In this document: positions 23,025 to 42,053 of the stretch, piece by piece
Layout of the letters: every line of letters begins with the position of its first letter
How positions within the stretch are numbered: the first letter of the stretch is position 1
Assembly: GCF_000281715.2 (NCBI RefSeq)
Contig: NZ_CP124576.1
Span: forward strand, 2,859,501 to 2,923,500
From: Sphingobium sp. AP49
Lineage (GTDB): Bacteria; Pseudomonadota; Alphaproteobacteria; Sphingomonadales; Sphingomonadaceae
DNA: 64,000 nucleotides
Direction of reading: 5' to 3'
The notes under the pieces: model-generated
Told to the model about the DNA's origin: nothing
Databases searched by the model: none
Seen by the model: the letters and a program-made list of their open reading frames with translations, nothing else
Made by a program: the position numbers and the translations under genes

Positions 23025-24234
23025 TTGGCCTGAGACCACTTGGGGTAACATAGCCGAATTGAAATACGGCAAGGCGATGACGGCCTATACCGATCAGCCA
23101 AATGTTGCTCGCGTCTACGGCACGAATGGCCCGATTGGTTGGCACGACACAGCCTTGCAGCCTGGGCCGGGAGTGATCGTCGGTCGCAAAGGCGCCTATC
23201 GAGGTGTGCATTATGCCGATCATCCATTCTGGGTAATCGACACTGCATATTACCTGAACCCCCTGGTGCCGATGGACCTGCGGTGGGCTTATTACTGGTT
23301 GCTTGATTACGATGTGAACAACATCGATGACGGCTCCCCCATACCGTCCACGACACGGGAAGCCTTCGGCTTTACCCCATTGAAGCTTCCGCCATTAAAT
23401 GAGCAAGAAAGAATCGCTGATCTTCTCGCCAGCCTTGATGCAAAAATCGATCTCAACTGCCAAATGGCCGCGACGCTTGAGGAAATGGCGCGATCACTAT
23501 TCAAGAGCTGGTTTGTTGATTTCGACCCCGTTCACGCAAAACTCGAAGGCCGAGACATTGGTCTGCCCGCCGAAATCGTCGCGCTATTCCCCGGCGGCTT
23601 TGGTGATGAGGGGGTGCCAACAGGATGGAACCGAAAACCAATTATCGACTTAGCTCACTGGATTAATGGCGCTGCCTACAAAAACATGCATTTTGTGTCG
23701 AAGGATGAGGGCCTGCCGGTTATCAAAATTGCTGAACTTAAGGCGGGGATCACTTCTAAAACGAAATTCACCGGTACTGATTTGGGAGGCCGCTACAAAA
23801 TCAATGATCGCGAGTTGCTGTTTTCATGGTCAGGGAATCCAGAAACATCCATCGACACATTTTTGTGGATGAATGGAGAAGCATGGCTGAACCAGCATAT
23901 ATTCGCAGTCAGGGAGAATGGTGAGTTGTCGCAACCGATGCTGCACGCGATGTTAAAATTTCTCAAACCGATTTTCACCTCAATTGCTCGGGATAAGCAG
24001 ACGATTGGTTTAGGGCATGTGACCAAAGAGGATATGGGACGCGTTTTTGTGGCCCTACCAAAAGGCGATTTATTGTGTGCGCTTCGCGACGTATTTGACG
24101 CGCTATTTGAACAGTATGCGGAGATGATCTCTCAAAATATCGCGCTTGAGGCCACTAAAACGACGCTGCTTCCGCGTCTCGTCTCTGGTGAACTTCGCGT
24201 CAAAGAAGCTGCAGAACGGGTTGCGGCGGCGTGA
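23014..24234 (+). CDS. hsdS: Type I restriction-modification specificity subunit
   Basis: A 406-residue S subunit with two target-recognition domains (about 1-135 and 195-350), each followed by a helical spacer. The first spacer holds [20 protein letters not shown] and [15 protein letters not shown], a classic HsdS signature. The second ends with [20 protein letters not shown]. The start is taken as ATG 23014, overlapping hsdM by 11 bp; an in-frame TTG lies at 23008. The recognition sequence cannot be predicted from the protein. Confidence 0.94.
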
Positions 24235-24245
24235 GGTTCATCTAA

Positions 24246-24932
24246 ATGGCATACCAGCTTCAGCTGCTGCGTTCATTGATTGAACGCCATCCGGAACGGG
24301 CTGGCAATCTTGAACTACACGTCCGTGCGCTGGAGCAGAGCATCGAGCAACTGCCCAACACATGCTTGGCCAGCGTGCGCACGATCTTTGAGGCGGCGCA
24401 GGCATCCATCGGCCTGCATCTAAACATCGAATTTGGCCGCGACGGCCTGCCCGGCCGCATGACCAAGGTCATCGAAGCCTTCGACTTCTCGATGACCGAT
24501 CACCCTGATGGCCACAAGATTCATGATGAGCTGTCTGCGCTCATTAAAGGCATTGAAGAAACGACCACTGCCCTTGCCCGGCTGAGCAATATCCCGAACA
24601 TGCGCCACGGCGGTGCGCTTGATTGGGCGGTGCTGCAGCGCCAGCACGCTTACATGCTGGGCGGCTTGTGCGATGCACTAGTGTCTTTCTTGCTCGATGT
24701 CGCGTGGAGCCGCCAATTCGAAGAGATGGAAGATCTGTCCGGCCCGTCCTACGCGCTCGAAAGCGACTTCAACGAAAGTCTCGACAACGGATATGAGCTT
24801 GTGGAAATCGCAGGGTCCAGCTTTGAAGCCAGCCGCATCCTCTTTACGCTGGACCCCACGCAATATGAGGCGGCGCTGACCGAATGGCGGCTGACCAAAC
24901 CCGTCGATGGCGAACAGGAAGCCGCCGCATGA
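24246..24932 (+). CDS. Abortive-infection C-terminal-like protein embedded in the hsd operon
   Basis: A 228-residue soluble helical protein with no transmembrane or signal segment. The central part (about 75-155: KGIEETTTALARLSNIPNMR, then HGGALDW and AYMLGGLCDALVSFLLDVAW) resembles the Abi_C domain found in phage-resistance and restriction loci. The assignment is tentative. It lies 11 bp after hsdS and overlaps hsdR by ATGA (24929-24932), so it is expressed with the restriction enzyme. It may modulate restriction, act in a second defence layer, or simply assist the complex. Confidence 0.6.
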   Translation: MAYQLQLLRSLIERHPERAGNLELHVRALEQSIEQLPNTCLASVRTIFEAAQASIGLHLNIEFGRDGLPGRMTKVIEAFDFSMTDHPDGHKIHDELSALIKGIEETTTALARLSNIPNMRHGGALDWAVLQRQHAYMLGGLCDALVSFLLDVAWSRQFEEMEDLSGPSYALESDFNESLDNGYELVEIAGSSFEASRILFTLDPTQYEAALTEWRLTKPVDGEQEAAA

Positions 24933-27900
24933 CATATTCCACCGGTGGCACTCCCCCTCTCAGTCGTTTTAACGAGGGCGCGGTTGAACTGGCGGCACTG
25001 AGCTGGCTCGATCTTTCTGGTTGGCGGGTGCTGACTGGCGATTATCTGGCCCCTGATGGGCCGATGAGCGCTCGCACCGACTACAAGCAGACGGTGCTAG
25101 AAGGCCCACTCCGCGATGCACTCGCCACGCTCAACCCCGATGCGACCTCGACGATGGTTGGAGCGGCGGTACGGACGGTGTTGGCCGCGCCCACTCAAAA
25201 TCTGCTTGAAAACAACCGAGCATTTCATGAGCTGTTGATTTTCGGCGTGCCGGTGGAAGTGAATGAGAATGGCGAAAGCCGAACTGTCCGCTTGCGCCTG
25301 ATCGACCAGAAGAAGCCAGACAACAACAGCTTCATCGCCGCTAATCAGTTTGTCGTGCAGGCCGAGCGCCATACGATCAGGCCAGACATCGTCCTCTTCA
25401 TCAACGGCTTGCCGTTGGCGGTGCTGGAGTTGAAAAATCCCGCCGATGAAAACGCCACGATGGACCGGGCGCATGAGCAGCTTCAAAACTACAAGGTCAA
25501 GGCTCCGGAACTGTTCCGCTTCAACACGGCGCTGGTCATCAGCGACGGGATGGAAGCGCGCATCGGCGCGCTGACCGCCGGGCTGGACCGTTTCCAGCCG
25601 TGGCGGACCATCGACGGCGAAAAGCATGACGACTTTGGCCGGGCGGAACTGGAAGTGCTCATCAGAGGCGCGTTCGATCCAGCGCGCCTGTTGGACCTTG
25701 CTTTCGACTATAGCGCTTTTGAAATGGCCGATGGCGTGGTTAGATCGAAGAAGCTGGCAGGCTATCACCAGTTCCATGCCGTGCGGCGAGCGCTGGCATC
25801 AACGATCAGGGCGGCAAGTGAAGGGGGACACCGCAAAGGCGGCGTTATCTGGCATACGCAGGGCAGCGGTAAATCGTTGACCATGCTTTTCTATGTCCGC
25901 CAGCTACAACTGGCAAAGAAGCTCAAAAATCCTACAATTGTTGTGGTGACGGACCGCAACGATTTGGACGATCAGCTCTTCAAGACCTTCACCGCGCACG
26001 GCAGCGCCATTCGCGGTGAACCACGCAATGCTGAAACAGTGGCGGCAGTGCGGGAACTGCTCAAGGTCGATATTGGCGGGCTCGTGTTCACCACGATCCA
26101 GCGGTTCCGAGGCGATGACGGCGAGCATCCGCTGCTGACCGATCGCAGCAACGTGATCGTGATCGCCGATGAAGCGCATCGCTCGCAATATGGCCTCAAC
26201 CGACGTTTCGTGACGCGGGGCGATGAAGTGCGTGAGGAAGTAGGTTTCGCCGAATATCTGCGGCAAGCTCTGCCCAACGCCACCTTCATTGGCTTTACCG
26301 GCACGCCGATTGACGAAAAGGATCGCAGCACGGCGGCCGTGTTTGGTGACGTGATCGACACATACGACATGACTCAATCGGTCATCGACAAGGCCACCGT
26401 GCCGATCCACTATTCTGCCCGGCTCGCCAAGCTAATGCTTCGACTCGATCAAGGGCAACGCGAAGAGCTGGACGCGCTCGCCGAAGAGCTGACCGAAGGC
26501 AGCGACGTGCGCGCCGCCGAAAAATTGAAGGCGAAATTCAGCCGGTTTGAGGAAATCGTCGGCTCTAAGGAACGCATCGAAACTGTCGCGGCCGACATTG
26601 TCGCCCATTTCGAAGAACGCAAAATCGCAATGGGCGGCGGCAAGGGTATGATTGTGGCCATCAGCCGTGATGTTGCGGTTAAACTCTATGACGAAATCGC
26701 GCGCCTGCGTCCCGCATGGGTTGGGACTGATCCTGCCAATGACGGCGACGGAATGATGAAGGTAGTCATTACCGGCAGCAATTCTGACAGGCAAGCCATG
26801 CAACCGCATATCCGCACCAAATCGCGACTGGAGGAAGTGGCCGACCGCTTTAAGAATCCATCATCCGGGTTTGATTTGGTGATTGTGCGTGACATGTGGC
26901 TAACCGGCTTTGATGCGCCGTCGCTGCACACCCTTTACATTGACAAGCCGATGCGTGGGCATGGCCTTATGCAAGCCATTGCGCGGGTTAATCGCGTGTT
27001 CGGTTCCAAGCCGGGTGGGCTGATAGTCGACTATCTGGGCATTGGCGCGGAACTGCGGGCGGCACTGGCGCAATATAGCGCCCGCGATCAGCAGCAAGTC
27101 AGCCTCAATATGGATGAGGCGGTTCGGCAGCTTCTTAGTAAGATAGAATCTGGGCTCGCTTTGCTCGGCAAGGTCAACTGGAATGCATTTTTCGAGGCTG
27201 ATCCAGTTGCCCGCCTGACCATCCTCAAGCAATGCCTTGAGGAAATTCTGTCCAACGATCACCGCGCAGAGTTCATTGACCTCGCTACACAAGCCGAAGC
27301 AGCCTTCGCCATCGCGGCGGGCGATGAGCGCGCTTCTGCAAAGCGACAGGAGGTGGCTCTGATTGTCGCCTTGCGGGCCAATCTCATCAAATACACGTCC
27401 GGCAAGGGCGGGCGCGGCAGACACGCCATCGAGCAGGAAATCCGCCAACTCATGTCTCAGGCTGTCATGTCCGATGGCATTCTTGACGTATTCAAGGATG
27501 CCGGGCTTGAGCAGCCCGATCTCGCCATCCTATCCGATGATTTCCTGCTGGAAGTAAAGCAAACCCAGCAACCCAATTTGGCGGTTGAAACGCTGCGGCG
27601 GCTTTTGCAGGGAAACATCAAGGCGCGCGAACGACTGAACATTGTCGAGGCGCGAAAGCTCAGTGAGCGCCTCGACGATGTGCTGACCCGATATCACAAT
27701 CGGGCGGTAGATAGCTTGCAGGTGATCGATGAGCTGATTTCGCTTGCCCGAGAAGTGTCGGCGTCCGTCAAGCGCGGCGAAGAGCTAGGCATGGGACCTG
27801 AAGAGCTGGCGTTTTACGATGCCTTAGCTGAGAACGGATCAGCAAGGGATTTGATGGAACGCGAAACGCTTCGCACCCTTGCTCAACTGCTGGTCAAAGC

Positions 27901-28075
27901 AATTCGCAGCACCGTGACCGTCGATTGGACGCAGAAGGAAAGCGTCCGCGCTAAAATGCGGATTGAGGTTCGCAAGCTGCTGGCCCGCTATGGCTATCCG
28001 CCCGATTTGCAAAAAGCGGCAGTCGATCTGGTTTTAGAGCAAGCAAACGCGATAGCAATAGACTGGGCTTTGTAG
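24929..28075 (+). CDS. hsdR: Type I restriction endonuclease subunit
   Basis: A 1048-residue motor and nuclease subunit. The N-terminal nuclease shows a PD-(D/E)xK pattern, with D153 in RPDIVLF and E167-L-K169 in LAVLELKNP. The SF2 helicase core has Walker A QGSGKS (311-316), DEAH-type VIADEAHRSQ (about 420), motif III GFTGTPI, and a later MQAIARVNRVF motif VI. The C-terminal helical domain binds the methylase. The start is fixed by the ATGA overlap with the preceding gene, although the frame stays open upstream. Confidence 0.95.
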   Translation: MTYSTGGTPPLSRFNEGAVELAALSWLDLSGWRVLTGDYLAPDGPMSARTDYKQTVLEGPLRDALATLNPDATSTMVGAAVRTVLAAPTQNLLENNRAFHELLIFGVPVEVNENGESRTVRLRLIDQKKPDNNSFIAANQFVVQAERHTIRPDIVLFINGLPLAVLELKNPADENATMDRAHEQLQNYKVKAPELFRFNTALVISDGMEARIGALTAGLDRFQPWRTIDGEKHDDFGRAELEVLIRGAFDPARLLDLAFDYSAFEMADGVVRSKKLAGYHQFHAVRRALASTIRAASEGGHRKGGVIWHTQGSGKSLTMLFYVRQLQLAKKLKNPTIVVVTDRNDLDDQLFKTFTAHGSAIRGEPRNAETVAAVRELLKVDIGGLVFTTIQRFRGDDGEHPLLTDRSNVIVIADEAHRSQYGLNRRFVTRGDEVREEVGFAEYLRQALPNATFIGFTGTPIDEKDRSTAAVFGDVIDTYDMTQSVIDKATVPIHYSARLAKLMLRLDQGQREELDALAEELTEGSDVRAAEKLKAKFSRFEEIVGSKERIETVAADIVAHFEERKIAMGGGKGMIVAISRDVAVKLYDEIARLRPAWVGTDPANDGDGMMKVVITGSNSDRQAMQPHIRTKSRLEEVADRFKNPSSGFDLVIVRDMWLTGFDAPSLHTLYIDKPMRGHGLMQAIARVNRVFGSKPGGLIVDYLGIGAELRAALAQYSARDQQQVSLNMDEAVRQLLSKIESGLALLGKVNWNAFFEADPVARLTILKQCLEEILSNDHRAEFIDLATQAEAAFAIAAGDERASAKRQEVALIVALRANLIKYTSGKGGRGRHAIEQEIRQLMSQAVMSDGILDVFKDAGLEQPDLAILSDDFLLEVKQTQQPNLAVETLRRLLQGNIKARERLNIVEARKLSERLDDVLTRYHNRAVDSLQVIDELISLAREVSASVKRGEELGMGPEELAFYDALAENGSARDLMERETLRTLAQLLVKAIRSTVTVDWTQKESVRAKMRIEVRKLLARYGYPPDLQKAAVDLVLEQANAIAIDWAL

Positions 28076-28102: not shown

Positions 28103-28864
28103 CTAATTCTTGCTCAGCCTCGCTATGCTAATGATGCATCGAACTGGCTGATTAGTCTCGGCTGCCTGCCGCTCGCAAGCGTCGATGGCCTCGCGGTTGT
28201 CATTGCGCATGGCGGCGGCATCAACGATGGCCTGCCACCCTTCCGGGTTCCCAATGCGCATAAATCGGATGCCCGCATCCCATAGCGTCGGCTCGCCTAG
28301 CGTGCGACGGGCAACCAGTTCCGGCCAGAGCCAGCTCTGCGGGCCGATGCTGGCCGCCCAGCCGGGATAGATTAACCACAGAAGCGAGATGGCCAGTGCC
28401 GCGCCACTGCCGCAATAGAACATGTGCCAGCGCTGTTTCTGTTTGGTCCGAATGGCCCCGACCGCGCGCAACTGATCCGCATGGACTTGATGATGCAATT
28501 CCACCGCCTTTTTGATGGTAGCCCGGTCGCTCGTGCGCGCGGCCTGCGCCGCCTCACTGATGCGTTCCGCCATGCCCTCCGGCGTCAACTGCATGGCGGG
28601 TGCGTCCATGATTGCCTTCGCCTGCCCGGCCAGCGTCGCGAGATAGCCGTTCATCTTGCCAAGCGTCGGTCCGTAGTCGGGGAACTCGATGCTCTGCTTC
28701 TCTATGGCGATATGCTCAAGCGCGCGGGCCATCACCGCCATGCGCCCGTCCAACCGCTCTTCCATAGCTGCGACGCGCTCCGAGAGGCGCGCGAACGCCT
28801 CTGCAGCGGCATTGGGCCGGGGTTCCGGCTGCGGCTCGTTCAAAAGGCCTTGCTCGTCGTCCAT
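28103..28864 (-). CDS. DUF6118-like membrane protein downstream of the relaxase
   Basis: A 253-residue protein with an N-terminal coiled-coil (about 20-60: AFARLSERVAAMEERLDGRM) and further helices. It has one transmembrane helix at about 148-168 (FYCGSGAALAISLLWLIYPGW) and a C-terminal periplasmic or cytoplasmic domain of about 85 residues. I recall such proteins beside TraA relaxases of sphingomonad mobile elements and named DUF6118; the function is unknown. It starts 18 bp after traA ends, with AAGGAG about 8 nt before the ATG, so is the second gene of the traA transcript. Confidence 0.7.
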   Translation of the reverse strand: MDDEQGLLNEPQPEPRPNAAAEAFARLSERVAAMEERLDGRMAVMARALEHIAIEKQSIEFPDYGPTLGKMNGYLATLAGQAKAIMDAPAMQLTPEGMAERISEAAQAARTSDRATIKKAVELHHQVHADQLRAVGAIRTKQKQRWHMFYCGSGAALAISLLWLIYPGWAASIGPQSWLWPELVARRTLGEPTLWDAGIRFMRIGNPEGWQAIVDAAAMRNDNREAIDACERQAAETNQPVRCIISIARLSKN

Positions 28865-28882: not shown

Positions 28883-31876
28883 TTAGCGGCTCATGCCGCG
28901 ACCGATGTCGCGTCCGTGATCGAAGGGAATGGAGGATGCGAGGTCATGGGAGAGGCTGCGGCCTACCTGCTGGCCAATCTCAAGCCCAAGCTCGCGGCTG
29001 CGCAGGCCCAGCACCGATTCAAGCTGCGCGTCGCGCTCAAGACTTTTCGCCATGCCCGCCATCTGTTGCGCGGCACTCTTCGCGCCACGGAAATTGCCGT
29101 CGCGCACAAGCTCGGCATGATGGCGCTGCAACTGCTGCCAGCCTTCCACGAACCGGTCGGCACGCTGGAAAGGGTCCATGCGAATTTCGGTCTCCAGTTG
29201 CATGGCGCGCGCGGCGGCCTGGCCGCGTCCCTCGGCGGCCTCGCGGACGAGTTCCGGGCTGCTGCGGAACGCGCTGTTCAAGTCGGAGGAACCTTCGGGC
29301 CGGATCGCGTCCAGTGCATCGCGCGCTCTGTCGAACGCCTCGCGCTGGTGCGGCATGGCGTCCAGATTCTGCGCGCGAGTCTGCTGGATCGCGTCCAGCG
29401 CCTTGGCGTAGCGCTCCACCGCACCACGTATGCCGCCTGCGCGTATCGGCTGCGCATCATATTCGGGTTGGTGCCTAACGGCCCGCTCCTGCGCGGGCGG
29501 CTCGGCCTTCGGCTGAAAGCCCGCAAATATGTCGCGGTCGTGCTGTAACGGAATATTGGGCCGGAAGTTGTCGAAGATCCCGCGCACCTTCTCGACGATG
29601 GGCCTGACGATTTCCGCGACTCGCTCGCCAAAGCTAATGCCGCGCCGCTCGGCGAAATCCCTTGCGGGGTCGGCTTGTCTGTAATCGGTCGTCATATCCT
29701 TGCCGCGCTCGCGTGAAAGCGTGCGGACAAGCCGGGACTGATCGCGAAAATCGTCGCGGCCATAATGAAGCGCCACGCCGTCACGATGACGGGACATGGC
29801 GACATAAGCCCCGTGGCGATCCATCCCCGGCGTCGCCAGCACATGGGCCCTGTCCACGGTCATGCCCTGCGCCTTGTGGATGGTGGCGGCATAGCCGTGG
29901 TCGAGGTCGCGATAATCCTTGGTGTCGAACGATACGGAACGCCCATCGTCGGTGCGGACGGACATATGCTCCGGGCTGACCTTCTCGATCGTACCCAGCG
30001 TGCCGTTCTTCACCTCAAGGCTGCGCTCATTGCGCAGGAACATGATGCGGTCACCAGACGCGAATAGGCGGTCGCCGCGCTCGGTCTTCACCTGGCGCTC
30101 GTCGCCTAATTCGCCCGCATTGCGCATCGCCGCGCGTGCAGCCTCGTTGAGGTCGCGCACCTCGGCATTGGTGTGGGTCAGGATGATGCGGCTGGCGTCC
30201 GGATCGGCTTGCCGTTCGCGATCCCAGCGCTCGACAAGATCGCGCCGCGCATCCTCGCGCGTCTCGGCCTGATGCACCATGTACTTGTCGGCATAGGCGG
30301 CAATCGCCTCACCGGTCCTGCCGGTGGCCAGATACCGAGTGGCGTTCTGCTGCCAGCCTTCATGCTGGCGGCGAACCTGGGTGATCTCGACGCCGCCATG
30401 GCGCTCATGGATCGCGCGGAACGCCGCGCCTGCTTCGATCGACTGCAGTTGCTGCGGATCGCCGACAAGAACGACCTTCGCGCCAACGTCGGCGGCATGG
30501 GAAAGGACGCGCTCCATCTGGCGCGTACCGACCATGCCCGCCTCGTCGATCACCAGCACGTCGCGGGCAGTCAAAAGATCGCGACCCTGCGCCCAGCTAT
30601 GTTCCAAGCTGGCGATGGTGCGGGACGCAATGCCGGAGCCATTCTCCAGTCCCTCGGCGGCGATGCCCGCAAGCGCCGCGCCGCGCACGTTGAGACCCGC
30701 GCCTTCCCATACTTCGCGCGCCACGCCCAGCATGGCGCTTTTGCCGGTTCCGGCATAACCCAGCACCAGTGACAATCCGCGTCCACCGGTTATATGGCGC
30801 AGCGCAGATTCTTGCTCTGCTCCCAGGGCCAGGCCACCACTCTCGGCGGCGCGACTGGCGTAGGTCGCCGCCGCCGAGAGACCATCGCTCCGGTCCATCG
30901 CCAACCTGTCAGCGGCGCGGCTCATCCGCTGCTCTGTCTCGATCATATCGCGCGACGTGAACCGCTCGTCGCCGCGCCCGTCCTTGCCCAGGGCGATCAG
31001 GTCGGGCGAATTACGCACCGCGCGCATGGCGGCGTTGAACTGTTCCTGCCCGTCGCTGTGACGGTGGATGAACATCGCCATGTCGCGGTTGGTGAATGTC
31101 GCCTGTTGGTGGGTGATGGCGTTAAGCGCAATGCCGGGATCAGCGATGATGCGTTCGCCATTCTCCCGCGCAATCTCGCGGTGCATCTCGGCGCGGTCGG
31201 CTTCCAGCCCTTGGGCTTCCATCCGGTGCGCAGGGCCGCCAATCTTGCTTTGCGGTTCGAGGTCGATGCCCTGATCGGCAAGGCTGCGGTGATCGATGCG
31301 CGCGTCAATGTCGAGTTCGGCAAGGCGCGTGTTGACATGGGTCTCCCAGCGTTCGCGCCAGCGCCCAACATTCTCATGATCGTTCCACTCGCGCACCTTC
31401 GCCCCGAAGCCAGCGGTGCCGTCCTCGCGCTGCACAACCTCCCGCATGGTGAGCATGACATGGGCGTGCGGCTTGGGCTGGCCGTCCGCGCCCATGTCCC
31501 AATGCACATTGAGGTCGGCGATCATGCCGAGATCGACAAACTGCGCGGACACGAAATCGCGGGCCAGTTCGATGCCCTGCGCCTTTGTCATTTCGCGGGG
31601 AATGGCAAACTCGACCTCGCGGGCGAGTTGGGCGTCCTTGCGCTTCTCGAATGCCTCGACATCGTTCCAGAGGCGCTCGCGGTCGTGCCATTGTTCGGGC
31701 GCACCTTCCGGCAGCATGATTTCGCTATGCTCGACGCCGGAGCGGGCACGGAAATCATGATCGCGGTCGAGGCGCTCGTCGTGCAGCCGCTCGCCCGCAC
31801 GGTAGGCGGCAGCGGATATGGCGGAACGGCCCGCCGCACGACTGATGACCTGAACGGAGAAATGGAAGATCGCCAT
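28883..31876 (-). CDS. traA: Ti-type conjugative relaxase-helicase TraA (MOBQ)
   Basis: A 997-residue DNA relaxase. The N-terminal MobA/MobL domain begins MAIFHFSVQVISRAAGRSAI with probable catalytic Tyr25 in SAAAYRAGE. The metal-binding histidines are in KPHAHVML (His137, His139, plus His125). A RecD/TraI-like helicase follows: Walker A GYAGTGKS (373-380), DVLVIDEAGMV, then VVLVGDPQQLQ and the C-terminal ATIHKAQGMTVD. The last 200 residues are charged and helical. It should nick oriT in the adjacent intergenic region and unwind the transferred strand. No coupling protein gene is present in the island. Confidence 0.93.
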   Translation of the reverse strand: MAIFHFSVQVISRAAGRSAISAAAYRAGERLHDERLDRDHDFRARSGVEHSEIMLPEGAPEQWHDRERLWNDVEAFEKRKDAQLAREVEFAIPREMTKAQGIELARDFVSAQFVDLGMIADLNVHWDMGADGQPKPHAHVMLTMREVVQREDGTAGFGAKVREWNDHENVGRWRERWETHVNTRLAELDIDARIDHRSLADQGIDLEPQSKIGGPAHRMEAQGLEADRAEMHREIARENGERIIADPGIALNAITHQQATFTNRDMAMFIHRHSDGQEQFNAAMRAVRNSPDLIALGKDGRGDERFTSRDMIETEQRMSRAADRLAMDRSDGLSAAATYASRAAESGGLALGAEQESALRHITGGRGLSLVLGYAGTGKSAMLGVAREVWEGAGLNVRGAALAGIAAEGLENGSGIASRTIASLEHSWAQGRDLLTARDVLVIDEAGMVGTRQMERVLSHAADVGAKVVLVGDPQQLQSIEAGAAFRAIHERHGGVEITQVRRQHEGWQQNATRYLATGRTGEAIAAYADKYMVHQAETREDARRDLVERWDRERQADPDASRIILTHTNAEVRDLNEAARAAMRNAGELGDERQVKTERGDRLFASGDRIMFLRNERSLEVKNGTLGTIEKVSPEHMSVRTDDGRSVSFDTKDYRDLDHGYAATIHKAQGMTVDRAHVLATPGMDRHGAYVAMSRHRDGVALHYGRDDFRDQSRLVRTLSRERGKDMTTDYRQADPARDFAERRGISFGERVAEIVRPIVEKVRGIFDNFRPNIPLQHDRDIFAGFQPKAEPPAQERAVRHQPEYDAQPIRAGGIRGAVERYAKALDAIQQTRAQNLDAMPHQREAFDRARDALDAIRPEGSSDLNSAFRSSPELVREAAEGRGQAAARAMQLETEIRMDPFQRADRFVEGWQQLQRHHAELVRDGNFRGAKSAAQQMAGMAKSLERDAQLESVLGLRSRELGLEIGQQVGRSLSHDLASSIPFDHGRDIGRGMSR

Positions 31877-32377: not shown

Positions 32378-32608
32378 ATGCGGGACTGGGCCATCGCACG
32401 CCGCGAACGCACGCGGCATTTGATCGAATTGGGCGGGCTGGTCGTCAAGGCCGGGCTGGTCGATCTGACCCATGATGACCGGGCAACGATCTACGGCGCG
32501 TTCCTCACGGTTGCCGACCGGCTGCGCGGGGACGAGCGTACTAATGCGCTTGCCCTGTGGAAGCGCAAGGGCAAGCGGGCCTTCGAGGCGGAACAGGGCG
32601 ACGGTTAG
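32378..32608 (+). CDS. traD: TraD-like small conjugal transfer protein
   Basis: A 76-residue protein of the short Ti-type TraD family. RERTRHLIELGGLVVKAGLVDLTHDDRATIYGAFL matches the family core (given here in two joined blocks, residues about 9-43). It lies 22 bp after traC in the usual traCD order. Its end overlaps the convergent HEPN gene by 4 bp. This is not the large VirD4-type TraD coupling protein. Confidence 0.82.
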   Translation: MRDWAIARRERTRHLIELGGLVVKAGLVDLTHDDRATIYGAFLTVADRLRGDERTNALALWKRKGKRAFEAEQGDG

Positions 32609-34119
32609 CGCGAAACCGACAAGCGCACATTGCCGCCCGGTTCTGCCTGATACTCGACCATCGCCGCTATGGGTGGGCTGCTCTTGTCGCAATAGCGCAC
32701 GGTGATGACGCTCTCCCGGATCGCGGGACATAGGCTGGAGCCATAGAGAATGTCCGCCAGCGCGTCGAAGGTCGTCGCCTTGGCGCGATAGGCACCGGTC
32801 CACCGCACCGTCCAAATGTCTTCATTGGCCTTGACTCGGTAGCCCGCCCTTTGCGCAACGTCCATGACCGCGCCAAGCACCGTGTCCGCGCGCACGTCGA
32901 AGTCCAGCACGGCGGAGAGGTCAGCGGGTTTGGAACGGACGGCCTGCGCTGAACTTAAACGCCATAGCGTTGCCTCCGCGCCAGCCATGAAGAAGCACAG
33001 GCAGACAATCGCCAAGGGCAGATGGTCAACCCAGCGCATGAACCGGTCGGAGCGCCAGAACCGGCGAACGGGAAAAAGCGGATTCCATCGGCCTTGTAGC
33101 GGGGCGACATGTCGCACGATCCGCCATGTCCGTTGCAGCATGTTTGCGCGACCAGCAGGCTTGGAAAGCGCTACCGCCGTTGTCGGCCCTGCGGGTGGCG
33201 GGAGCATCGGCGCTGGCAGACTCACGGCAAGCGAAGCCTGATGATCCGCGCAGGCAAACGCGGCCCGTTCCTGCAATATCTTCACCCGCGCGAACGCCCA
33301 TGACAACTCCTCGCCCGAGATGCGGTAGGATCGCGCATAGCGCGCTTCGACATAGGCGCGGCGAATGCAGCCGAACGCGCGCCGCCCGAACCGGCTGTCG
33401 CGCGGCCATGCCGAACATAGGCGCGGGTCCAGCGCTTCCGCCGCCTCGCGCAGTTCATCCAGCGCATGGGTGCGCGGCGCGTGCAGGCTGATCGAACGCA
33501 GGACGCACAGATAGAAATGCTCGCACGCCTGATGCAACAGCAGCGCCGCCATCGGCGCATCGCCCCGGTTCCGATAGAAAGCCGCGCCAGCCAGAAATCC
33601 GGTGCCGCGCTTATGCCATCGGATAAACTCCACCGCACCCTGGATGACCCGTTCCCGCGCCGGAAGGCGACGCGGCTCTTTCAGCCGGAAGCCCTGCATC
33701 TGGTAGAGTGCGATTCCCTGTTCGGCGATGGTGACGAAATGCGGGACGCCTTCGACAAGAGCACCGTTGATCCGCTCAAGGCTTTCCACGCTCAGCCGCA
33801 CCGGGCGGGTAATTTCGCCATGCTCCCACGCGCGACGAAGACGGTCACGTACCAGCCGCCAGTCGCGTTCGCTGCGTGCAAGGCGGGGATAATTGACGAT
33901 CGCCAGCAGGCGGAACGCTTCCCCCGGCGCGACATTTTCCCACTCTTTCTCGGCGTGCGGCCCATGCATGATCAGGCTGAGAATGCGGCCTGCCCGGAAA
34001 TGTTCGGAACATCGGCCCTTGGTCGTTTCCTCGAACGCCTCGAACAGGATTGTGGCGACGTGAAGAAGTTCCTCACGGATCGGCGCGGGCAGATGGTCGG
34101 CATCGGTGCGCAATATCAT
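32605..34119 (-). CDS. Membrane-spanning degenerate-nucleotidyltransferase/HEPN protein with STN-like periplasmic domain
   Basis: A 504-residue protein with an unusual architecture. Residues about 20-130 resemble a MNT-type nucleotidyltransferase, but the Gly-Ser and catalytic aspartates are missing (GRILSLIMHGPHA, then FRLLAIVN). Residues about 165-290 fit a HEPN domain (AALLLHQACEHFYLCVL, THALDELREAAEAL, then YVEARYARSYRISGEEL). One transmembrane helix spans 367-384. Residues about 404-475 (LDFDVRADTVLGAVMDVAQR and FDALADILYG) resemble the STN domain of TonB receptors and secretins. The start at 34119 has AGGAGG upstream and overlaps the preceding gene by ATGA. Function unknown; it suggests a cytoplasmic effector linked to a periplasmic sensor. 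Confidence 0.65.
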   Translation of the reverse strand: MILRTDADHLPAPIREELLHVATILFEAFEETTKGRCSEHFRAGRILSLIMHGPHAEKEWENVAPGEAFRLLAIVNYPRLARSERDWRLVRDRLRRAWEHGEITRPVRLSVESLERINGALVEGVPHFVTIAEQGIALYQMQGFRLKEPRRLPARERVIQGAVEFIRWHKRGTGFLAGAAFYRNRGDAPMAALLLHQACEHFYLCVLRSISLHAPRTHALDELREAAEALDPRLCSAWPRDSRFGRRAFGCIRRAYVEARYARSYRISGEELSWAFARVKILQERAAFACADHQASLAVSLPAPMLPPPAGPTTAVALSKPAGRANMLQRTWRIVRHVAPLQGRWNPLFPVRRFWRSDRFMRWVDHLPLAIVCLCFFMAGAEATLWRLSSAQAVRSKPADLSAVLDFDVRADTVLGAVMDVAQRAGYRVKANEDIWTVRWTGAYRAKATTFDALADILYGSSLCPAIRESVITVRYCDKSSPPIAAMVEYQAEPGGNVRLSVSR

Positions 34120-34730
34120 GACCGCGCCTCCTGTAAGCGGCGCTGGCAACCCCTGGGGCGCGGGTGGCCGGTCAAGTCATGCACGCGATCTACCAAGGCA
34201 CGCAAAAGGGGTGTGATCGTGGCGGGAATGAAGCCGCCCGTGCGGGGCCGGTCTTCCTCCCACTCATGATAATGATAGCCCCATTTCCAATAGGGCGAGA
34301 GAACCGCAGCCAGCCGCTCCATGTCGGGGCAGTTGTGACCGAAGCCGCACGCATTGGCGTAGGCCAGCGCCTTGGCGATGTCCTGCTTGATGTGGCTGGC
34401 GTTCCACGCATCGGCAAAGCCCATGTCGAGCAGGTAGGCACACAGCGCCTGCTGGGTCACGAAACCGGCCTGATGCAGCGCTTCTTTTGTACGTCGCGGA
34501 TCGATGAAGAAATCCGCTTCCAGCGTGGTCATCCAGCGTTCCGCATTTTGATAGCGGAAGCGGCTTATGCTCCGGCCATCTTTCGTCCGCTCAAGTGTCG
34601 CGGGCTCGTCGTTGTAGCGTTGGTGAAGCGCCGCCAGTACGCCCTCCCAAGGAGACGCAATTGCCGAGGCGGCGACCGGCGCGATAGCTAATCCGCGCAG
34701 CAGGGCGCGGCGGGATTTGGAGACAAGCAT
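34116..34730 (-). CDS. Exported protein of unknown function, partner of the HEPN/STN gene
   Basis: A 204-residue protein with a twin-arginine or Sec-type leader (SKSRRALLRGLAIAPVAASAIASP), so likely periplasmic. The mature part is rich in aromatic residues and histidines (GYHYHEWEEDRP near the C-terminus) and has three cysteines; I recognise no domain. GGAGG lies about 5 nt before the ATG at 34730. It is translationally coupled to the HEPN/STN protein, whose STN-like domain would face the same compartment, so a physical partnership is plausible. Confidence 0.6.
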   Translation of the reverse strand: MLVSKSRRALLRGLAIAPVAASAIASPWEGVLAALHQRYNDEPATLERTKDGRSISRFRYQNAERWMTTLEADFFIDPRRTKEALHQAGFVTQQALCAYLLDMGFADAWNASHIKQDIAKALAYANACGFGHNCPDMERLAAVLSPYWKWGYHYHEWEEDRPRTGGFIPATITPLLRALVDRVHDLTGHPRPRGCQRRLQEARS

Positions 34731-34857: not shown

Positions 34858-34914
34858 ATATACGCCATCGTTTAATCAATAAACGATGGCGTATATTGAA
34901 ATAAACGATGGCGT
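34858..34914. promoter_or_regulatory. Strong inverted-repeat operator plus a third half-site
   Basis: A perfect 17-bp inverted repeat (34858-34874 and 34880-34896; arm ATATACGCCATCGTTTA, 5-nt spacer) is followed by a third direct half-site. AATAAACGATGGCGT occurs at 34878-34892 and again at 34900-34914, exactly 22 bp apart. It lies between the HEPN/STN operon and the ribbon-helix-helix gene, so both divergent units could be controlled. Confidence 0.75.
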
Positions 34915-34963
34915 CAATGGGTTTGATTTGGAAATTCCCATTGGACCCGATAGCGACAGGTCG

Positions 34964-35143
34964 ATGGGACGCCCGCCACTTGGAATGAAGCCGACGACGA
35001 TCAGGCTAACTACCGACACGATCCGTCGTATCGAGTCGCTCGTCGGCAACCGAAGGCTCGCCCTGTTCATTCGCGAGGCTGTGGAGAACGAGCTAAAGCG
35101 CCGCGAAAATCCGGAAGCGCTCCAAGGTCAGGGCAACCCCTGA
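34964..35143 (+). CDS. Ribbon-helix-helix DNA-binding protein
   Basis: A 59-residue protein. MGRPPLGMKPTTIRLTTDTI followed by RRIESLVGNRRLALFIREAVENELKRRE fits the CopG/Arc ribbon-helix-helix fold, with the TTIRL strand and two helices. The open frame begins at 34886, but that start would lie inside the operator; the ATG at 34964 gives the family-typical MGRPPL start and leaves the operator upstream. Probably autoregulated through the 34858-34914 site. It could be a stand-alone regulator or the antitoxin/relaxosome-type protein of the island. Confidence 0.72.
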   Translation: MGRPPLGMKPTTIRLTTDTIRRIESLVGNRRLALFIREAVENELKRRENPEALQGQGNP

Positions 35144-35558: not shown

Positions 35559-36659
35559 ATGGCGACGTCGGCGGACCGAGAATTGATTGAAGGCCTGCAG
35601 ACTGAACGCCTTCCGGACGAGATGTCCGCCTATCCGCTGGACGACATCATGGTCCGCAAGGATACGCGTGGCGTGGGCGATGTCGTCAAGCGGATAGAGG
35701 CGGGTCGTTACTCCATGAACCCCGACTTCCAGCGCGACTTCGTCTGGAAGCCGGACAAGCAGTCGAAGCTTATCGAAAGCTGTGTAATGCGCATCCCCCT
35801 TCCGGTGCTCTACGTCGCCGAAGGAGAGGATGGGCGGATCACCGTGGTCGACGGGTTGCAGCGATTGAGCACCTTCCAAGCATTTCTTACCAATAAGCTC
35901 AAGCTGACCGGCTTGGGCAAAGATCATCCGCTCGAGGGCAAGCGGTACAACGATCTTCCGATTAACCTCCAAGAGCGAATCGAGGACACGCAACTCACGC
36001 TATACATTCTCGACAAGGACGCCCCAGAGGCCGCCCGGCTCGACATCTTTGACCGGGTCAACAGCGGAATTCCGCTCAGCCGCCAGCAAATGCGCAACGC
36101 GCTCTACAACGGCCCGGCGACGCGGTGGCTCGCTGCCATGGCGACCGATCCCTTATTTCTCTCGGCGACGGGCGAGACGTTGTCGCGCGAGACTATGCGT
36201 GACCGTGAGGCAATCAACCGCTTCGCTGCGTTTAACCTGCTCGGTTGGGAAAGCTATAATGGTGATATGGATCTCCACCTGGCAAAGGCGTTGTCGGCAC
36301 TGAACGCGGCTGGACCGGACGCTATCGATCAGGCTACTCGTGAATTCCGGGGTAGCATGAAGCGTAACGAGGAGCTGTTCGGTCGGCACGCGTTCCGCAA
36401 GTCGCTCGCCGAGCGACGCGAGGATGCCTCCCGGTCGGTAATCAACATCTCGATGTTCGATACCTTCGCCTGCTGCCTTGCCCGCATATCCGACGAAGCT
36501 CTCCGCCGCAGCGAAGCGAATATCGTCGAGAGCATCGTCGAACTGATGAGCTTCGAACGCTTCAACAACGCGGTCACATATTCTACAAACAGCACAGTCC
36601 AGGTACGCACCCGTTACACAATGATGACTGAGGCGCTTCAGCCTTGGATGACGGCATGA
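35559..36659 (+). CDS. DUF262 (ParB/GmrSD N-terminal-like) protein, first gene of a three-gene operon
   Basis: A 366-residue soluble protein. NPDFQRDFVW (54-63) and VVDGLQRLSTF (96-106) are the DUF262 signature, with IFDRVNSGIPLSRQQMRNAL (about 163-182) following. The DGxQR motif is linked to nucleotide binding and hydrolysis in GmrS-like restriction proteins. There is no DUF1524 nuclease domain, unlike GmrSD. GGAG precedes the ATG at 35559. The stop overlaps the ATPase start (ATGA 36656-36659), indicating a shared transcript and likely complex. Confidence 0.82.
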   Translation: MATSADRELIEGLQTERLPDEMSAYPLDDIMVRKDTRGVGDVVKRIEAGRYSMNPDFQRDFVWKPDKQSKLIESCVMRIPLPVLYVAEGEDGRITVVDGLQRLSTFQAFLTNKLKLTGLGKDHPLEGKRYNDLPINLQERIEDTQLTLYILDKDAPEAARLDIFDRVNSGIPLSRQQMRNALYNGPATRWLAAMATDPLFLSATGETLSRETMRDREAINRFAAFNLLGWESYNGDMDLHLAKALSALNAAGPDAIDQATREFRGSMKRNEELFGRHAFRKSLAERREDASRSVINISMFDTFACCLARISDEALRRSEANIVESIVELMSFERFNNAVTYSTNSTVQVRTRYTMMTEALQPWMTA

Positions 36660-37777
36660 TCAACGCCGTACATATCGAGCGCTTCAAGTGCTTCGACGCG
36701 TTCACGCTCGACCTCGCCCAGCTGACCCTGCTGACCGGCTACAACGGCGCAGGCAAATCGAGTTCGATTCAGCCGCTGCTACTTCTTTCGCAGGCTCTGC
36801 GTGAGCCACCGCTTGGCCTGGTGCTGCCCCTTAACGGGCCGCTCGTCAGGCTCGGCGGCGCTAGCGATGTAGCGTCGACCCGGACGGGCGGCACAGTTCG
36901 TATTGGCGTATCCACGCCGGAAGACGAGAGCGCGTTCTGGGTGTTCGAGCACGAACGCGAACTCGGCCGGCATGAGCTCAGCCTGCGCCATAGCCATTTC
37001 TCGTTCGAGGACGGCGATGAACCCCGTTGGCTACCCGATGCTCGACATCGCAGCCTGTTGGAGCGCATGCGCGAGGTCATCTTTCTCGGCGCGATCCGCG
37101 ATCCCTTTGGTGAGGGACAACCCTATCCTGACAACCCGTCCGCCATCGTCGGTGACGTCGGTGTCGATGGGCGGTACGCCGCTTACTGGTTCGTACGCCA
37201 AGCGGACGAGGAGGTGCCGGGAGAGCGGCGCCATCCCTCTGACCCCCGGGTGACCGTGCGCGCCCAGGTTGACGCTTGGCTCGCCGAACTTTTCCCCGGC
37301 GCCAGTGTGAATGCTGAGGAAATCGAAGGTCTCGCCCTTGCGAAGACGAGTTTCAGGCTTGGCCGCTCGTCCGACTGGCGACGCCCGGCGAACGTTGGCT
37401 ATGGTCTCAGCTACGCCTTTCCCATTCTAGTCGCGTTGCTCTGTGCGAAGCCCGGGCAGGTCTTCATTGTCGACAGCCCCGAAGCGCATCTCCACCCTCG
37501 CGCGCAGTCGGTGATGGGGCGCCTCTTGGCCCGCTTCGCGGCGGCGGGCATCCAGATTATCGTCGAAAGCCATAGCGATCACCTTCTCTCCGGCATCCGC
37601 TTGGCGGTGCGAGAGGAACTGTTGCAATCGGAGGAAGTCGCCGTGCATTTTTTCACAAGCTGCGGCACATCGGGAGACGAGCAGACGCGCATCGCCATCG
37701 GCGAGGATGGGAGCGTGGCTGACTGGCCAGCGGGCTTCTTCGACCAAGCGATAAACGACTTGATTGGATTATCGTGA
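36656..37777 (+). CDS. SMC-like AAA ATPase with DUF3696 features
   Basis: A 373-residue ABC/SMC-type ATPase of the AAA_15/DUF3696 group. Walker A GYNGAGKSS is at 28-36, and the D-loop and Walker B are in VDSPEAHLHPRAQ with a following VESHSDHLLSGIR. DUF3696-like C-terminal residues follow (IAIGEDGSVADWPAGFFDQA). The start at 36656 is set by the ATGA overlap; a TTG 12 bp upstream is in frame. Such ATPases drive several anti-phage systems. It lies between a DUF262 protein and an unknown protein, each immediately adjacent. Confidence 0.82.
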   Translation: MINAVHIERFKCFDAFTLDLAQLTLLTGYNGAGKSSSIQPLLLLSQALREPPLGLVLPLNGPLVRLGGASDVASTRTGGTVRIGVSTPEDESAFWVFEHERELGRHELSLRHSHFSFEDGDEPRWLPDARHRSLLERMREVIFLGAIRDPFGEGQPYPDNPSAIVGDVGVDGRYAAYWFVRQADEEVPGERRHPSDPRVTVRAQVDAWLAELFPGASVNAEEIEGLALAKTSFRLGRSSDWRRPANVGYGLSYAFPILVALLCAKPGQVFIVDSPEAHLHPRAQSVMGRLLARFAAAGIQIIVESHSDHLLSGIRLAVREELLQSEEVAVHFFTSCGTSGDEQTRIAIGEDGSVADWPAGFFDQAINDLIGLS

Positions 37778-38689
37778 GTGGCACGGGGATACCTTAATAG
37801 CCTGAGCTTCCCGGCCACTGATGTGAAGTCTGGCCTCGAGCTTCTTTCGGAGCTTCGGGAGGGCATCGCACGGCTCATAAAGGCTGAGGTGATTGCGCCG
37901 CCTGTGATGTGCGCACTCCGGGCTTCGCAACTACCCCTCTCGCCAGACTATGTGACCTTGCCCCACGCGGCGAAGACGCACGGCGCGCAGTTCCGAGATA
38001 CGATCCTGTTCTTTCTTACCGCGCTCGATCAGAGGTCGCCGGTTCATGTTGCCCTCCCGCCCGAAGATCAGGAGGAAGCCCGACCGAGCGTAGTTGACGA
38101 CGCCGAGTGCGACTTTGATCCCGAAGCGGCCACGGTTCTGGTCTCCTGTGCACTCGACGATGGCGTGCTCCTAAGTCTGGGCTCCAGTGATCGGTGGCGC
38201 ACGCCAGATATCGAGGTCAGGATGCTGACGGCCAGCGCGGAAACGGAACGCCAGGTTAAAGTTTGCAACGTGCATAACGCGCCCACCGCCGACGCCGCAC
38301 ATGAACGCCGCGCTACGGCGATGGCCGCGCATCGGTTTGAAAACTGGGAGCACCTGACTGGAGACGCTCGACGCGCGCCGCAGCTTGACGACTGGTTCGC
38401 CGAATGTCGCACGCGTCCCGGTTTAGAACAGGTTGTGATGCGATCGCTTGCGCTAGCCAGGGCGCAAGGATGGCTCCCGGACGGCGACCTTGTGAAGAAA
38501 CTGAACGCCAAGTCCTCGTCTCCGGTATTCGAGGTTCGCGCATGGTACAACGGCAGCAACAACGTCCGAGTTCTTTTCGGGCGAACTGCGGCCGGCTCCG
38601 TCGCGGTTGGCTTTGGCGGAACCAAGACTTCGCCGGATTGGTACGATAACGCCATACCGCAGGCGGATCGCTTCATATCCGAGCGCTAA
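37778..38689 (+). CDS. Unknown third protein of the DUF262/DUF3696 operon
   Basis: A 303-residue soluble protein starting with a GTG placed directly after the ATPase stop (zero spacing), so co-translated. I recognise no domain. The N-terminal 90 residues have no repeats or catalytic motif; the centre contains RFENWEHLTGDARRAPQLDDWF, and the C-terminus ends VGFGGTKTSPDWYDNAIPQA. By position it should be the effector or adaptor of the operon. Its lack of identity with known effectors is what makes it interesting. Confidence 0.65.
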   Translation: MARGYLNSLSFPATDVKSGLELLSELREGIARLIKAEVIAPPVMCALRASQLPLSPDYVTLPHAAKTHGAQFRDTILFFLTALDQRSPVHVALPPEDQEEARPSVVDDAECDFDPEAATVLVSCALDDGVLLSLGSSDRWRTPDIEVRMLTASAETERQVKVCNVHNAPTADAAHERRATAMAAHRFENWEHLTGDARRAPQLDDWFAECRTRPGLEQVVMRSLALARAQGWLPDGDLVKKLNAKSSSPVFEVRAWYNGSNNVRVLFGRTAAGSVAVGFGGTKTSPDWYDNAIPQADRFISER

Positions 38690-39083: not shown

Positions 39084-39389
39084 TTACTCCGGCTCGAATT
39101 CCGGGGGAACGTCGTGGGGCCACATGCGCGCGCCATGGATTACGCGAAGGACGCGCACGGTATCCCCAATGATCTGGTAAGGTGCGATATAGGGCGTGTG
39201 CGCGATCACCAATTCGCGCGTGCCTTCGATCCGGCCCGGACGCCCGCTATTCGGGAAATCTTTGAGGCGCTGGGCTGCTGCCTCGATCCGATCGTCCACA
39301 TCGGCGGCGGCTTGCGGATTATCCTCGGCAATCCAAATGAATATCGCCAGACGATCAGTCGTCGCCCGATTTGACCAAGCGAGTTTCAT
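39084..39389 (-). CDS. RelE/ParE-family toxin
   Basis: A 101-residue toxin of the ParE/RelE superfamily. WSNRATTDRLAIFIWIAEDN, RLKDFPNSGRPG (about 42-53), RELVIAHTPYIAPYQI and VRVLRVIHGARMWP match the fold and its conserved GRPG and RVIHGAR elements. It overlaps the antitoxin stop by ATGA (39389-39386), the usual coupling. It should cleave ribosome-bound mRNA or poison gyrase, depending on subfamily; the sequence does not settle which. Confidence 0.88.
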   Translation of the reverse strand: MKLAWSNRATTDRLAIFIWIAEDNPQAAADVDDRIEAAAQRLKDFPNSGRPGRIEGTRELVIAHTPYIAPYQIIGDTVRVLRVIHGARMWPHDVPPEFEPE

Positions 39390-39691
39390 TGCACCGGCTT
39401 GATGCCCTTTCGAGCATTCGCGCGAAGCTCAGCAAACCGCGCGGAAACCTCGGCGTCGTTAATGTCAGGCCGATCGTCGTCCAGCGCCTCCTGCACCCGC
39501 GCCCGGAACCACTGGTCATAAGCTTGCCGCTCTACCAGCAACTCCATGGGGGCAACGCCCTCGCGCGCGGTGCGGGTCAGAAGGATGCGCACGGCGTCTG
39601 ATACCGTAAGCCCCATCCGCTCGAACACGGCGGAGGCGCGGTCCTTTACGTCCGAATCGATGCGTGTCTGAATCAGGGCATTATTGGCCAT
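39386..39691 (-). CDS. RelB/DinJ-family antitoxin
   Basis: A 101-residue antitoxin. The N-terminal ribbon-helix-helix ALIQTRIDSDVKDRASAVFE, then LTVSDAVRILLTRTAREG, is a typical RelB/DinJ signature. The C-terminus, which would wrap the toxin, ends DAEVSARFAELRANARKGIKP. The start at 39691 has AAGGAG about 7 nt upstream; the open frame extends further to 39787 without support. It probably represses its own promoter. Confidence 0.88.
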   Translation of the reverse strand: MANNALIQTRIDSDVKDRASAVFERMGLTVSDAVRILLTRTAREGVAPMELLVERQAYDQWFRARVQEALDDDRPDINDAEVSARFAELRANARKGIKPVQ

Positions 39692-39727
39692 GGGATCACT
39701 CCTTGGGCTCATGTGTAATGCAATCGC

Positions 39728-39741
39728 ATGACAATTGTCAT
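39728..39741. promoter_or_regulatory. Palindrome upstream of the toxin-antitoxin operon
   Basis: ATGACAATTGTCAT is a perfect 14-bp palindrome 36 bp before the antitoxin ATG. Its position fits an operator bound by the RelB-like antitoxin. Confidence 0.5.
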
Positions 39742-40239
39742 CAGGAAACGGCAGTCGCGGTGTTACAAGTGCCACCAAAATGTGCAAATCGGCACTGAAA
39801 TGCCGAAAGCGGCAGTGTAGTGCCTACTTCAGGAACTTCATTTCCTATCCACTTGCACACTCGGAAAAACCGAGACAGCATACTCACCGGAGGCATAGCA
39901 CAAGACGGCTTGGCGGGTCGTCAACAAGAGGTCCGCCATGGCGTACGACTCGAACAGGTCGATTGCTATCATTTCAGGGGCGAAGCGCCCGCTGCTTGCC
40001 CTTGCAAGGCACCGCCCTGCTCTCTCCGGGCAAAAGGCGACCGCCTCTTGCCGCCTGGGGCCACCGATGATCCGCTATCGCCGCCACATGCGCGAAATCT
40101 CCGCTGATCCCCGACATTTGCCGCCGTAGGCCCCCCACAACCCTATGCGCGCCGATTGCCCCTTGCGGGCTGAGGGACGGCCCGCATTGTTCACTCTCAT
40201 GGGGGAAAGGCATAACTGGCGCACCTATGGAATAAGTCG
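39742..40239. other. Non-coding stretch between the toxin-antitoxin pair and AlpA
   Basis: This 498-bp stretch lies between divergent units and should hold the AlpA-operon promoter. Short open frames (for example 39820-40107) show no recognisable domain. Confidence 0.45.
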
Positions 40240-40455: not shown

Positions 40456-40646
40456 CCGCGCTCCAGCCCCCCGATCCAATCTGCGTCCGCGTCAATGAAG
40501 CGGCGCGCATGATCGGCGTCGGTCGCACCAAGCTCTATGAACTGATCGCGGCTGGCGAGGTTGAAACGGTGAAGCTTGGCAGGGCAACCCGTATCACCAC
40601 CGCCAGCCTGCACGATTTGGTCAGGCGGCAACGCGGCGCACTGTAG
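40452..40646 (+). CDS. Excisionase-like helix-turn-helix protein
   Basis: A 64-residue DNA-binding protein of the excisionase family. VNEAARMIGVGRTKLYELIA then GEVETVKLGRATRI is the MerR-like winged-helix pattern. Its 3' end overlaps the integrase 3' end by 26 bp. It probably helps excise the island, together with the AlpA protein. Confidence 0.82.
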   Translation: MTALQPPDPICVRVNEAARMIGVGRTKLYELIAAGEVETVKLGRATRITTASLHDLVRRQRGAL

Positions 40647-41835
40647 GGTCGGACGCCGTTCCTGCGGCGTCCTTCACCTTGCCGTTCTGTGTCTCTGTGC
40701 GGTCGAGATACTCGGCCCAACGCGCCATGAGGCTGCGCCGCTTGTCGAAAAAATCGGTGCGGCGATAAGCGGCTTCAACCTTGTTAGGCAGCTTGTGCGC
40801 CAGTGCCTTGTCGGCAACCTCCTTCGGAAAGCGCGTCCGTTCGGCTGCCCAATCGGTAAAGGATGAACGAAAGCCATGGACCGTAATTCCTGCGATCCCA
40901 TCATCTCGCAACAGCTTGGTCATGGTTACGTCGCTGATCGGCTTCTCGCCATTATGTGAGAACACAAGCCCGGTGTCGCTGGTGCGCTCCTTCCAACGCT
41001 TGCGCAGCAACGCAACGACAGGCGCGGAAAGCGGCACAATATGGGCTTCCCGCGCCTTCATGCGCTCGCCGGGAATGCTCCAGATGCCATTATCAAGGTC
41101 GAACTCGGACCACACCGCAAAGCGCGTCTCATTCGACCGCACAGCGTTGTAGATAGTAAAGCGCAAGGCATCGCGCCCGGTTGTGGGCGAAGCTCCCGCG
41201 AGCTTCTGCATGAGCGCCGGGACTTCGGCATAGGACATGGCTTCCATATGACCGCGCTTGTCGTTCTGGCGGGGAAGCCCCTTCCGAACGGAGCGGAGTG
41301 ATACTTCCTCCGGCACCCATCCCTTGACGTGCGCAAAATCCAGAACGACGCTGATGCGCTGGAGGATGCGGCGGGCGGTTTCCGGTATTTCGAGCCAGAT
41401 TGACGCAAGCGCCTCGACCACGCAGGCGCTGTCCACCTGGTCTACCGGCTTCTTGCCGATTTTAGGGAAGACGTGCTTTTCGAAGCTCGACAGCCACTTC
41501 ACATGATGCCCACCTTTCCAGCCTTCACGCAGCGTCTCATGGCAATTTCGAGTCGCGGCTTCGAAGTTGGGCACGATCTTTCGCGCCTTCCGACGCTCGG
41601 CGACTGGATCGAAGCCCTCTCGAACACGGCGGCGTAACGCTGTTGCTGCTTCGCGTGCCTCGGCTAGCGATACGTCCAACGCTGATCCCAGCCCGTAGTC
41701 ACGGCGTTGCCCGTTTCTCTGCATTCGCAGAACCCATGTCCGCGCCCCGCTGTCCTTCACGAGCAAGCAAAGACCTCTGCTATCGGTATGCCGTCCGGGC
41801 TTCGCGTTCTTCACTTTCAAAGTTGTCAGCGCCAT
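40621..41835 (-). CDS. P4-type tyrosine integrase of the island
   Basis: A 404-residue site-specific recombinase with an N-terminal DUF4102-like arm-binding domain (LKVKNAKPGRHTDSRGLCLL). The catalytic residues are visible: Arg233 (NAVRSNETRFAVW), His320-x-x-Arg323 (HGFRSSF), His347 (LAHKL) and Tyr357 (AAYRRTD). It is transcribed leftward and lies about 200 bp from attR, as expected for a tRNA-targeting island integrase. It should recombine attL and attR to excise the island. Confidence 0.94.
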   Translation of the reverse strand: MALTTLKVKNAKPGRHTDSRGLCLLVKDSGARTWVLRMQRNGQRRDYGLGSALDVSLAEAREAATALRRRVREGFDPVAERRKARKIVPNFEAATRNCHETLREGWKGGHHVKWLSSFEKHVFPKIGKKPVDQVDSACVVEALASIWLEIPETARRILQRISVVLDFAHVKGWVPEEVSLRSVRKGLPRQNDKRGHMEAMSYAEVPALMQKLAGASPTTGRDALRFTIYNAVRSNETRFAVWSEFDLDNGIWSIPGERMKAREAHIVPLSAPVVALLRKRWKERTSDTGLVFSHNGEKPISDVTMTKLLRDDGIAGITVHGFRSSFTDWAAERTRFPKEVADKALAHKLPNKVEAAYRRTDFFDKRRSLMARWAEYLDRTETQNGKVKDAAGTASDPTVRRVAA

Positions 41836-42036: not shown

Positions 42037-42053
42037 CCTCCTCCGCTACCATT
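42037..42053 (+). repeat. attR: second copy of the 17-bp tRNA-Met 3' end
   Basis: CCTCCTCCGCTACCATT matches 21135-21151 exactly. It marks the right end of the island, about 200 bp beyond the integrase start. Confidence 0.9.

Follow-up and report, generated by a model that had tools for sequence, protein, structure and literature searches.

The VirD2-binding protein (VBP) of Agrobacterium recruits the relaxase–DNA complex to the coupling protein of a type IV secretion system (T4SS), and the solved structure 4NQF is its HEPN domain, according to an excerpt of PMC3953389. VBP is cytoplasmic and binds an ATP analogue, and one VBP has been reported as an NTPase, in excerpts of two papers (PMC3953389, PMC4667095); vbp1, one of the VBP genes, is placed on pAtC58 (excerpt of PMC4667095). 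Here we analyse a 64,000-nucleotide (nt) stretch of the Sphingobium sp. AP49 genome (NZ_CP124576.1, positions 2,859,501–2,923,500 of the forward strand, assembly GCF_000281715.2; hereafter, the window) and, within it, a coupled gene pair, P0001 and P0002, of which P0001 joins a VBP-like body to a transmembrane (TM) helix and a receptor-type STN domain. Our analysis indicates that P0001 probably functions in DNA transfer, not as a toxin. More specifically, it may be an inner-membrane-anchored relaxosome adaptor of the VBP kind, with an STN-type domain that would dock on or sense a partner in the envelope, possibly a helper T4SS, a reading to which we attach about as much belief as doubt.

Domain architecture of P0001

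P0001 (32605–34119, reverse strand) encodes 504 residues in a four-part architecture that the earlier note on this DNA had read from the sequence and that is confirmed here. A degenerate nucleotidyltransferase-like (NT) domain, with its catalytic motif lost (residues about 1–150; 33670–34119, reverse strand), is followed by a HEPN domain (residues 151–297; 33229–33669, reverse strand) whose closest solved relative is the VBP HEPN domain 4NQF. A variable linker (residues 298–366) leads to one TM helix (residues about 367–391) and to an STN-type domain (residues about 400–488, of which 405–488 correspond to 32656–32907, reverse strand) with profile similarity to TonB-transducer signalling domains, and then to a tail. 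In a Pfam scan of P0001 at E ≤ 1, HEPN was the sole match, with neither a FecR domain nor PF07660. The TM helix and the charge pattern place the STN-type domain on the opposite side of the membrane from NT-HEPN, the topology that the note had expected. An assembly or gene-calling artefact was ruled out, with the reading frame kept in 28 near-full-length places, as was a recent chance fusion: the linker retains 20–59% identity to distant copies against 71–87% for STN, and fused copies stand on two tree branches.

The search with PF07660 that had been proposed for the C-terminal part gave no match with single sequences, none exceeding the Pfam gathering score, but similarity to solved STN domains emerged from a profile built of 18 rows, 15 from P0001 relatives and 3 from separate TM-STN genes. 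Against the PDB at E ≤ 10, this profile returned TonB-transducer proteins in 9 of 10 rows (best E 0.0013); its likeness to the STN domains of TonB-dependent transducers (FemA, FpvA, HasR, PupA and PupB) spans the whole domain and includes the periplasmic side, although the P0001 domain differs in lying below PF07660 detection. Matches to the profile occur in 51 of 397 genomes of the family, and beyond P0001-like and separate TM-STN copies most of the listed places lie in frames of about 800–1,200 residues, which is TonB-receptor size, judged by size alone; in the genome that contains the window, one place overlaps with a match to PF07660. A cysteine pair is invariant in all 18 aligned STN rows, which fits an oxidising compartment. 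The structure model of P0001 leaves this domain unresolved, so support for the STN fold comes from the profile alone. Together, the profile and topology support a predicted STN-type domain on the periplasmic side.

Three small proteins adjoining P0002 relatives at other loci (L033:8167–8754, L034:7860–8450 and L086:9419–10054, the last on the reverse strand) consist of an N-terminal TM helix with an S-x3-H motif and an STN-type domain with the same cysteine pair. The S-x3-H helix presumably resembles that of TonB; Pfam scans of the L033 and L086 genes at E ≤ 0.5 gave nothing.

Relation to VBP and to transfer genes

P0001 has 4NQF as its best solved match and shares with VBP a body of about 300 residues, NT then HEPN, as well as a gene position near relaxase or coupling-protein genes on conjugative replicons. 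In the window, a 997-residue protein with a MobA/MobL-type relaxase and a helicase region (28883–31876, reverse strand; PF03389, E 5.8e-70) lies 2.9 kb from the P0002 side, and TraD-family genes are adjacent: one encodes a small protein convergent with P0001 (32050–32355, forward strand; PF06412), and the 3′ end of a second (32378–32608, forward strand) overlaps the P0001 stop codon. A relaxase, mobilization or coupling-protein gene was present in 7 of the 9 NT-HEPN plasmid regions that we read (L006, L007 and L127–L133), which were picked among high-ranking matches and not at random; in L128, L130 and L131, the NT-HEPN gene adjoins the coupling-protein gene or is one gene from it. An NT-HEPN protein of pAtC58 shows 34% identity in 305 columns aligned with P0001, and its gene is 3.1 kb from traA; the 4NQF stretch tested is absent from this protein, and we therefore leave aside which VBP it is.

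P0001 departs from the cytoplasmic, nucleotide-binding VBP in its added TM helix and STN-type domain and in the absence of the NT nucleotide-binding motif (GS..DxD), which is canonical in only 2 of 29 rows covering it (L010 and L035). The motif's loss suggests that P0001 does not share the NTP use reported for VBP. Because of this loss, and because relaxase and coupling-protein binding is putative, we do not claim VBP membership for P0001.

The earlier note had suggested a cytoplasmic effector, with HEPN proteins often being RNases in defence and toxin systems, but a HEPN RNase effector or toxin found no support here. The only R-x4–6-H pair found in more than 4 of 32 rows, R208–H213, is present in 9 of them, and the P0001 HEPN belongs to the NT-fused class, which typically lacks RNase residues and is inactive, in an excerpt of PMC3710099. 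Neither P0001 nor P0002 had a PADLOC match at E ≤ 0.01. The NT and HEPN folds recall the HepT–MntA (type VII) toxin–antitoxin system, but P0001 is one fused chain without Rx4–6H and without an active NT motif, and no active MNT antitoxin gene stands beside it, the P0002 and TraD neighbours not being MNT by Pfam.

The coupled partner P0002

P0002 (34116–34730, reverse strand; 204 residues) is joined to P0001 by an ATGA overlap and carries an export-type leader, as the note had described; the leader is twin-arginine translocation (Tat)-like (SRRALLR) and is followed by a predicted HEPN-like helical domain. Twin arginines are kept in 24 of 25 P0002 rows, and at E ≤ 1 the Tat-leader profiles TIGR02811 and TIGR01409 match 20 and 7 of 26 rows, respectively, with P0002 itself at 17.3 bits against a cut-off of 48.45. 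No match to P0002 was found among PDB sequences at E ≤ 10 or in a phage search. Modelling gives the mature part another HEPN-like fold, which makes P0002 unlikely to be a simple ligand, one of the two roles (ligand or regulator) that the note had suggested.

Conservation and co-inheritance

We examined 51 loci gathered by similarity to P0001 or P0002, 44 of which hold the NT-HEPN part. At 70% coverage, P0002 accompanies NT-HEPN in 38 of these 44, in line with the expectation that the pair co-occurs elsewhere, and TraD and relaxase genes are found in 38/44 and 36/44, respectively. P0001 has matches in at least 76 of 94 same-genus genomes, mostly to the NT-HEPN part; near-full-length copies occur, among the matches listed, at 28 places in 20 of the 94. 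Beyond the genus, P0001-like copies were found in G287 (two, one of them broken), G046 and G294. Among plasmid records, 366 match P0001, all partially, and none covers 80%; a plasmid search with the C-terminal 211 residues gave one plausible fragment only, in three pieces (H74).

Across 21 close copies, the ratio of nonsynonymous to synonymous substitution rates (dN/dS) is 0.14 for NT, 0.15 for HEPN, 0.37 for the linker, 0.20 for the TM helix and 0.12 for STN, so the STN part is as constrained as NT and HEPN (0.12–0.15). Broken copies exist (L029, L064, L070, L073, L079 and L084). Distance correlations over the loci are high within the cassette (P0002–STN 0.90, NT-HEPN–STN 0.88, P0002–NT-HEPN 0.86), and weaker and less clean in the close clade (P0002–STN 0.63, NT-HEPN–STN 0.31). 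Over long times the cassette holds together, yet it recombines against the relaxase.

The usual gene order is a ribbon-helix-helix-type (RHH) gene, the divergent P0002, P0001, and then convergent TraD, relaxase and DUF6118 genes. The part downstream of P0002 or NT-HEPN varies: it may be a fused TM-STN, a separate TM-STN gene (L033, L034, L086) or a sigma-type gene. In a tree, 7 rows that either keep the NT motif or come from canonical plasmid loci are split from 21 rows of this operon type with support of 100/100, and the fused STN amounts to two changes. Elsewhere, apparent fusions of degenerate NT, sigma-region-4-like and P0002-like HEPN parts lie upstream of NT-HEPN genes (L087:7726–9189 and L088:7379–8704, and on the reverse strand L089:9749–10981 and L080:11263–12507).

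Mobile element carrying the pair

The pair lies inside a 20.9-kb integrative mobilizable element (21135–42053; 20,919 bp end to end). The element is bounded by a 17-bp repeat, one copy of which (21135–21151, forward strand) is in the 3′ end of a tRNA-Met gene (21073–21149) and the other at 42037–42053 (forward strand); genome-wide, the repeat occurs at these two places alone, and a check of nine other genomes found it once in five and nowhere in four. A tyrosine integrase gene (40621–41835, reverse strand; PF00589, PF13356, PF22022) lies near the right end. The relaxase gene is followed by its conserved neighbour encoding a DUF6118 protein (28103–28864, reverse strand), and a small RHH-type gene (34886–35143, forward strand; NF041551 at E 0.0007, weak and below the cut-off) is divergent from P0002, as a neighbour often kept on the P0002 side across loci.

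The element has a relaxase, and no coupling protein or T4SS was found. Five coupling-protein queries gave no match within the window, and whole-genome Pfam searches for the coupling protein (PF02534) and VirB4 (PF03135) had their matches outside it, with a coupling-protein match at 3059667 of contig 1. In the 50 other loci, the sole coupling-protein match was a partial one of 26% in L031; because none of these pieces exceeds 19 kb, a missing match carries little weight.

The element also holds a candidate defence system of three genes (35571–38689) with PADLOC matches to NsnA (4e-113), NsnB (1e-95) and NsnC (5e-219), and a type I restriction set (21435–28075) with an Abi_C-domain protein (24246–24932) between HsdS and HsdR. 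A RelB-type antitoxin gene (39386–39787) has behind it a small open reading frame (39084–39389) that looks, by eye only, like a ParE-type toxin.

Weighing the explanations

Several observations weigh against a transfer adaptor. Distances of relaxase and NT-HEPN correlate at only 0.41, against 0.86–0.90 within the cassette; in the close clade the P0002–TraD correlation (0.68) exceeds that of P0002 with NT-HEPN (0.33); five close copies adjoin a relaxase only 73–74% like that of the window; and no relaxase was found in four loci uncut by a contig end (L031, L071, L072 and L080). In two of the nine plasmid regions (L132 and L133), no gene for transfer is close by. The VBP dimer residues D173, K184 and N186 align with G174, R185 and D187 of P0001, an ambiguous point in that they also differ in the pAtC58 protein; N186D, the state that P0001 has in D187, disrupted the VBP dimer in the excerpt of PMC3953389. 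In addition, export of P0002 by Tat would keep it from pairing with a HEPN in the cytoplasm.

Transmembrane signalling is the main rival, which we regard as doubtful but worth attention: STN would sense an envelope signal, as the STN of TonB transducers does, and NT-HEPN would relay it to control how genes for transfer or excision are transcribed, with a logic like that of FecR. FecR-type anti-sigma regulators have a cytoplasmic part, one TM helix and a periplasmic STN-type part, much as P0001 does. Sister operons hold sigma-70 region 4 genes at the place of STN, above the Pfam cut-off in L035, L037, L081, L082 and pMI1, below it in L032, by similarity in L083–L085, L087 and L088, and by annotation in pTK2 and pJE1; an ECF (extracytoplasmic function) sigma factor stands there once (L036). 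P0002 relatives in L033 and L034, moreover, pair with separate TM-STN genes with no NT-HEPN between. However, P0001 has NT-HEPN in the cytoplasm and no FecR domain match, STN and a sigma-like gene occur together in no cassette among the loci read, and none of the genes scanned next to the window cassette is sigma-like.

Less probable still is a selfish or stability module, a pseudo-enzyme toxin–antitoxin-like pair that is simply carried along in a hot spot flanked by TraD and the RHH gene. Other gene sets occupy the same hot spot, and the broken copies and the cassette's inheritance partly apart from the relaxase would suit such a passenger, but all three domains are under strong purifying selection and relatives outside the hot spot also adjoin relaxase or coupling-protein genes. 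A toxin or anti-phage effector that acts as a HEPN RNase under periplasmic control, despite the HEPN fold, HEPN toxins among the fold matches and the other defence genes of the element, was rejected on motif, HEPN class and gene context, with VBP as the closest relative and most relatives beside relaxase genes, and we consider it highly improbable.

A possible mechanism and its significance

If P0001 is a VBP-like adaptor, a cytoplasmic NT-HEPN dimer would hold the element's relaxase–DNA complex, and the TM anchor, in place of free diffusion, would keep the complex waiting at the membrane. The STN domain would dock on a partner in the envelope, or be altered by it, and this contact would time or place hand-over to a coupling protein; for an element in which no T4SS was found, a helper machine or a TonB-dependent receptor would be a plausible partner. 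P0002 would be a diverged HEPN partner: if exported through its Tat-like leader, it would act together with STN in the periplasm, and otherwise it may pair with the P0001 HEPN inside the cell. A stricter version is speculative: a membrane-tethered relaxosome dock in which STN, from the periplasm, would detect either a helper T4SS or the state of a receptor and gate hand-over, so that transfer would occur only with a usable machine.

In the open-access literature, we found no paper joining HEPN with 'STN domain' or with 'secretin and TonB', and none joining 'STN domain' with type IV secretion and conjugation. Little is understood of the way in which a mobilizable element that has no T4SS locates and exploits a foreign one, and the pair's locus offers a concrete, testable candidate: a conserved adaptor that crosses the inner membrane, its body on the inside being of the relaxase-recruiter kind and its signalling domain on the outside of the receptor type. 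P0001, annotated merely as 'HEPN domain-containing', is thereby re-read as a likely transfer factor.
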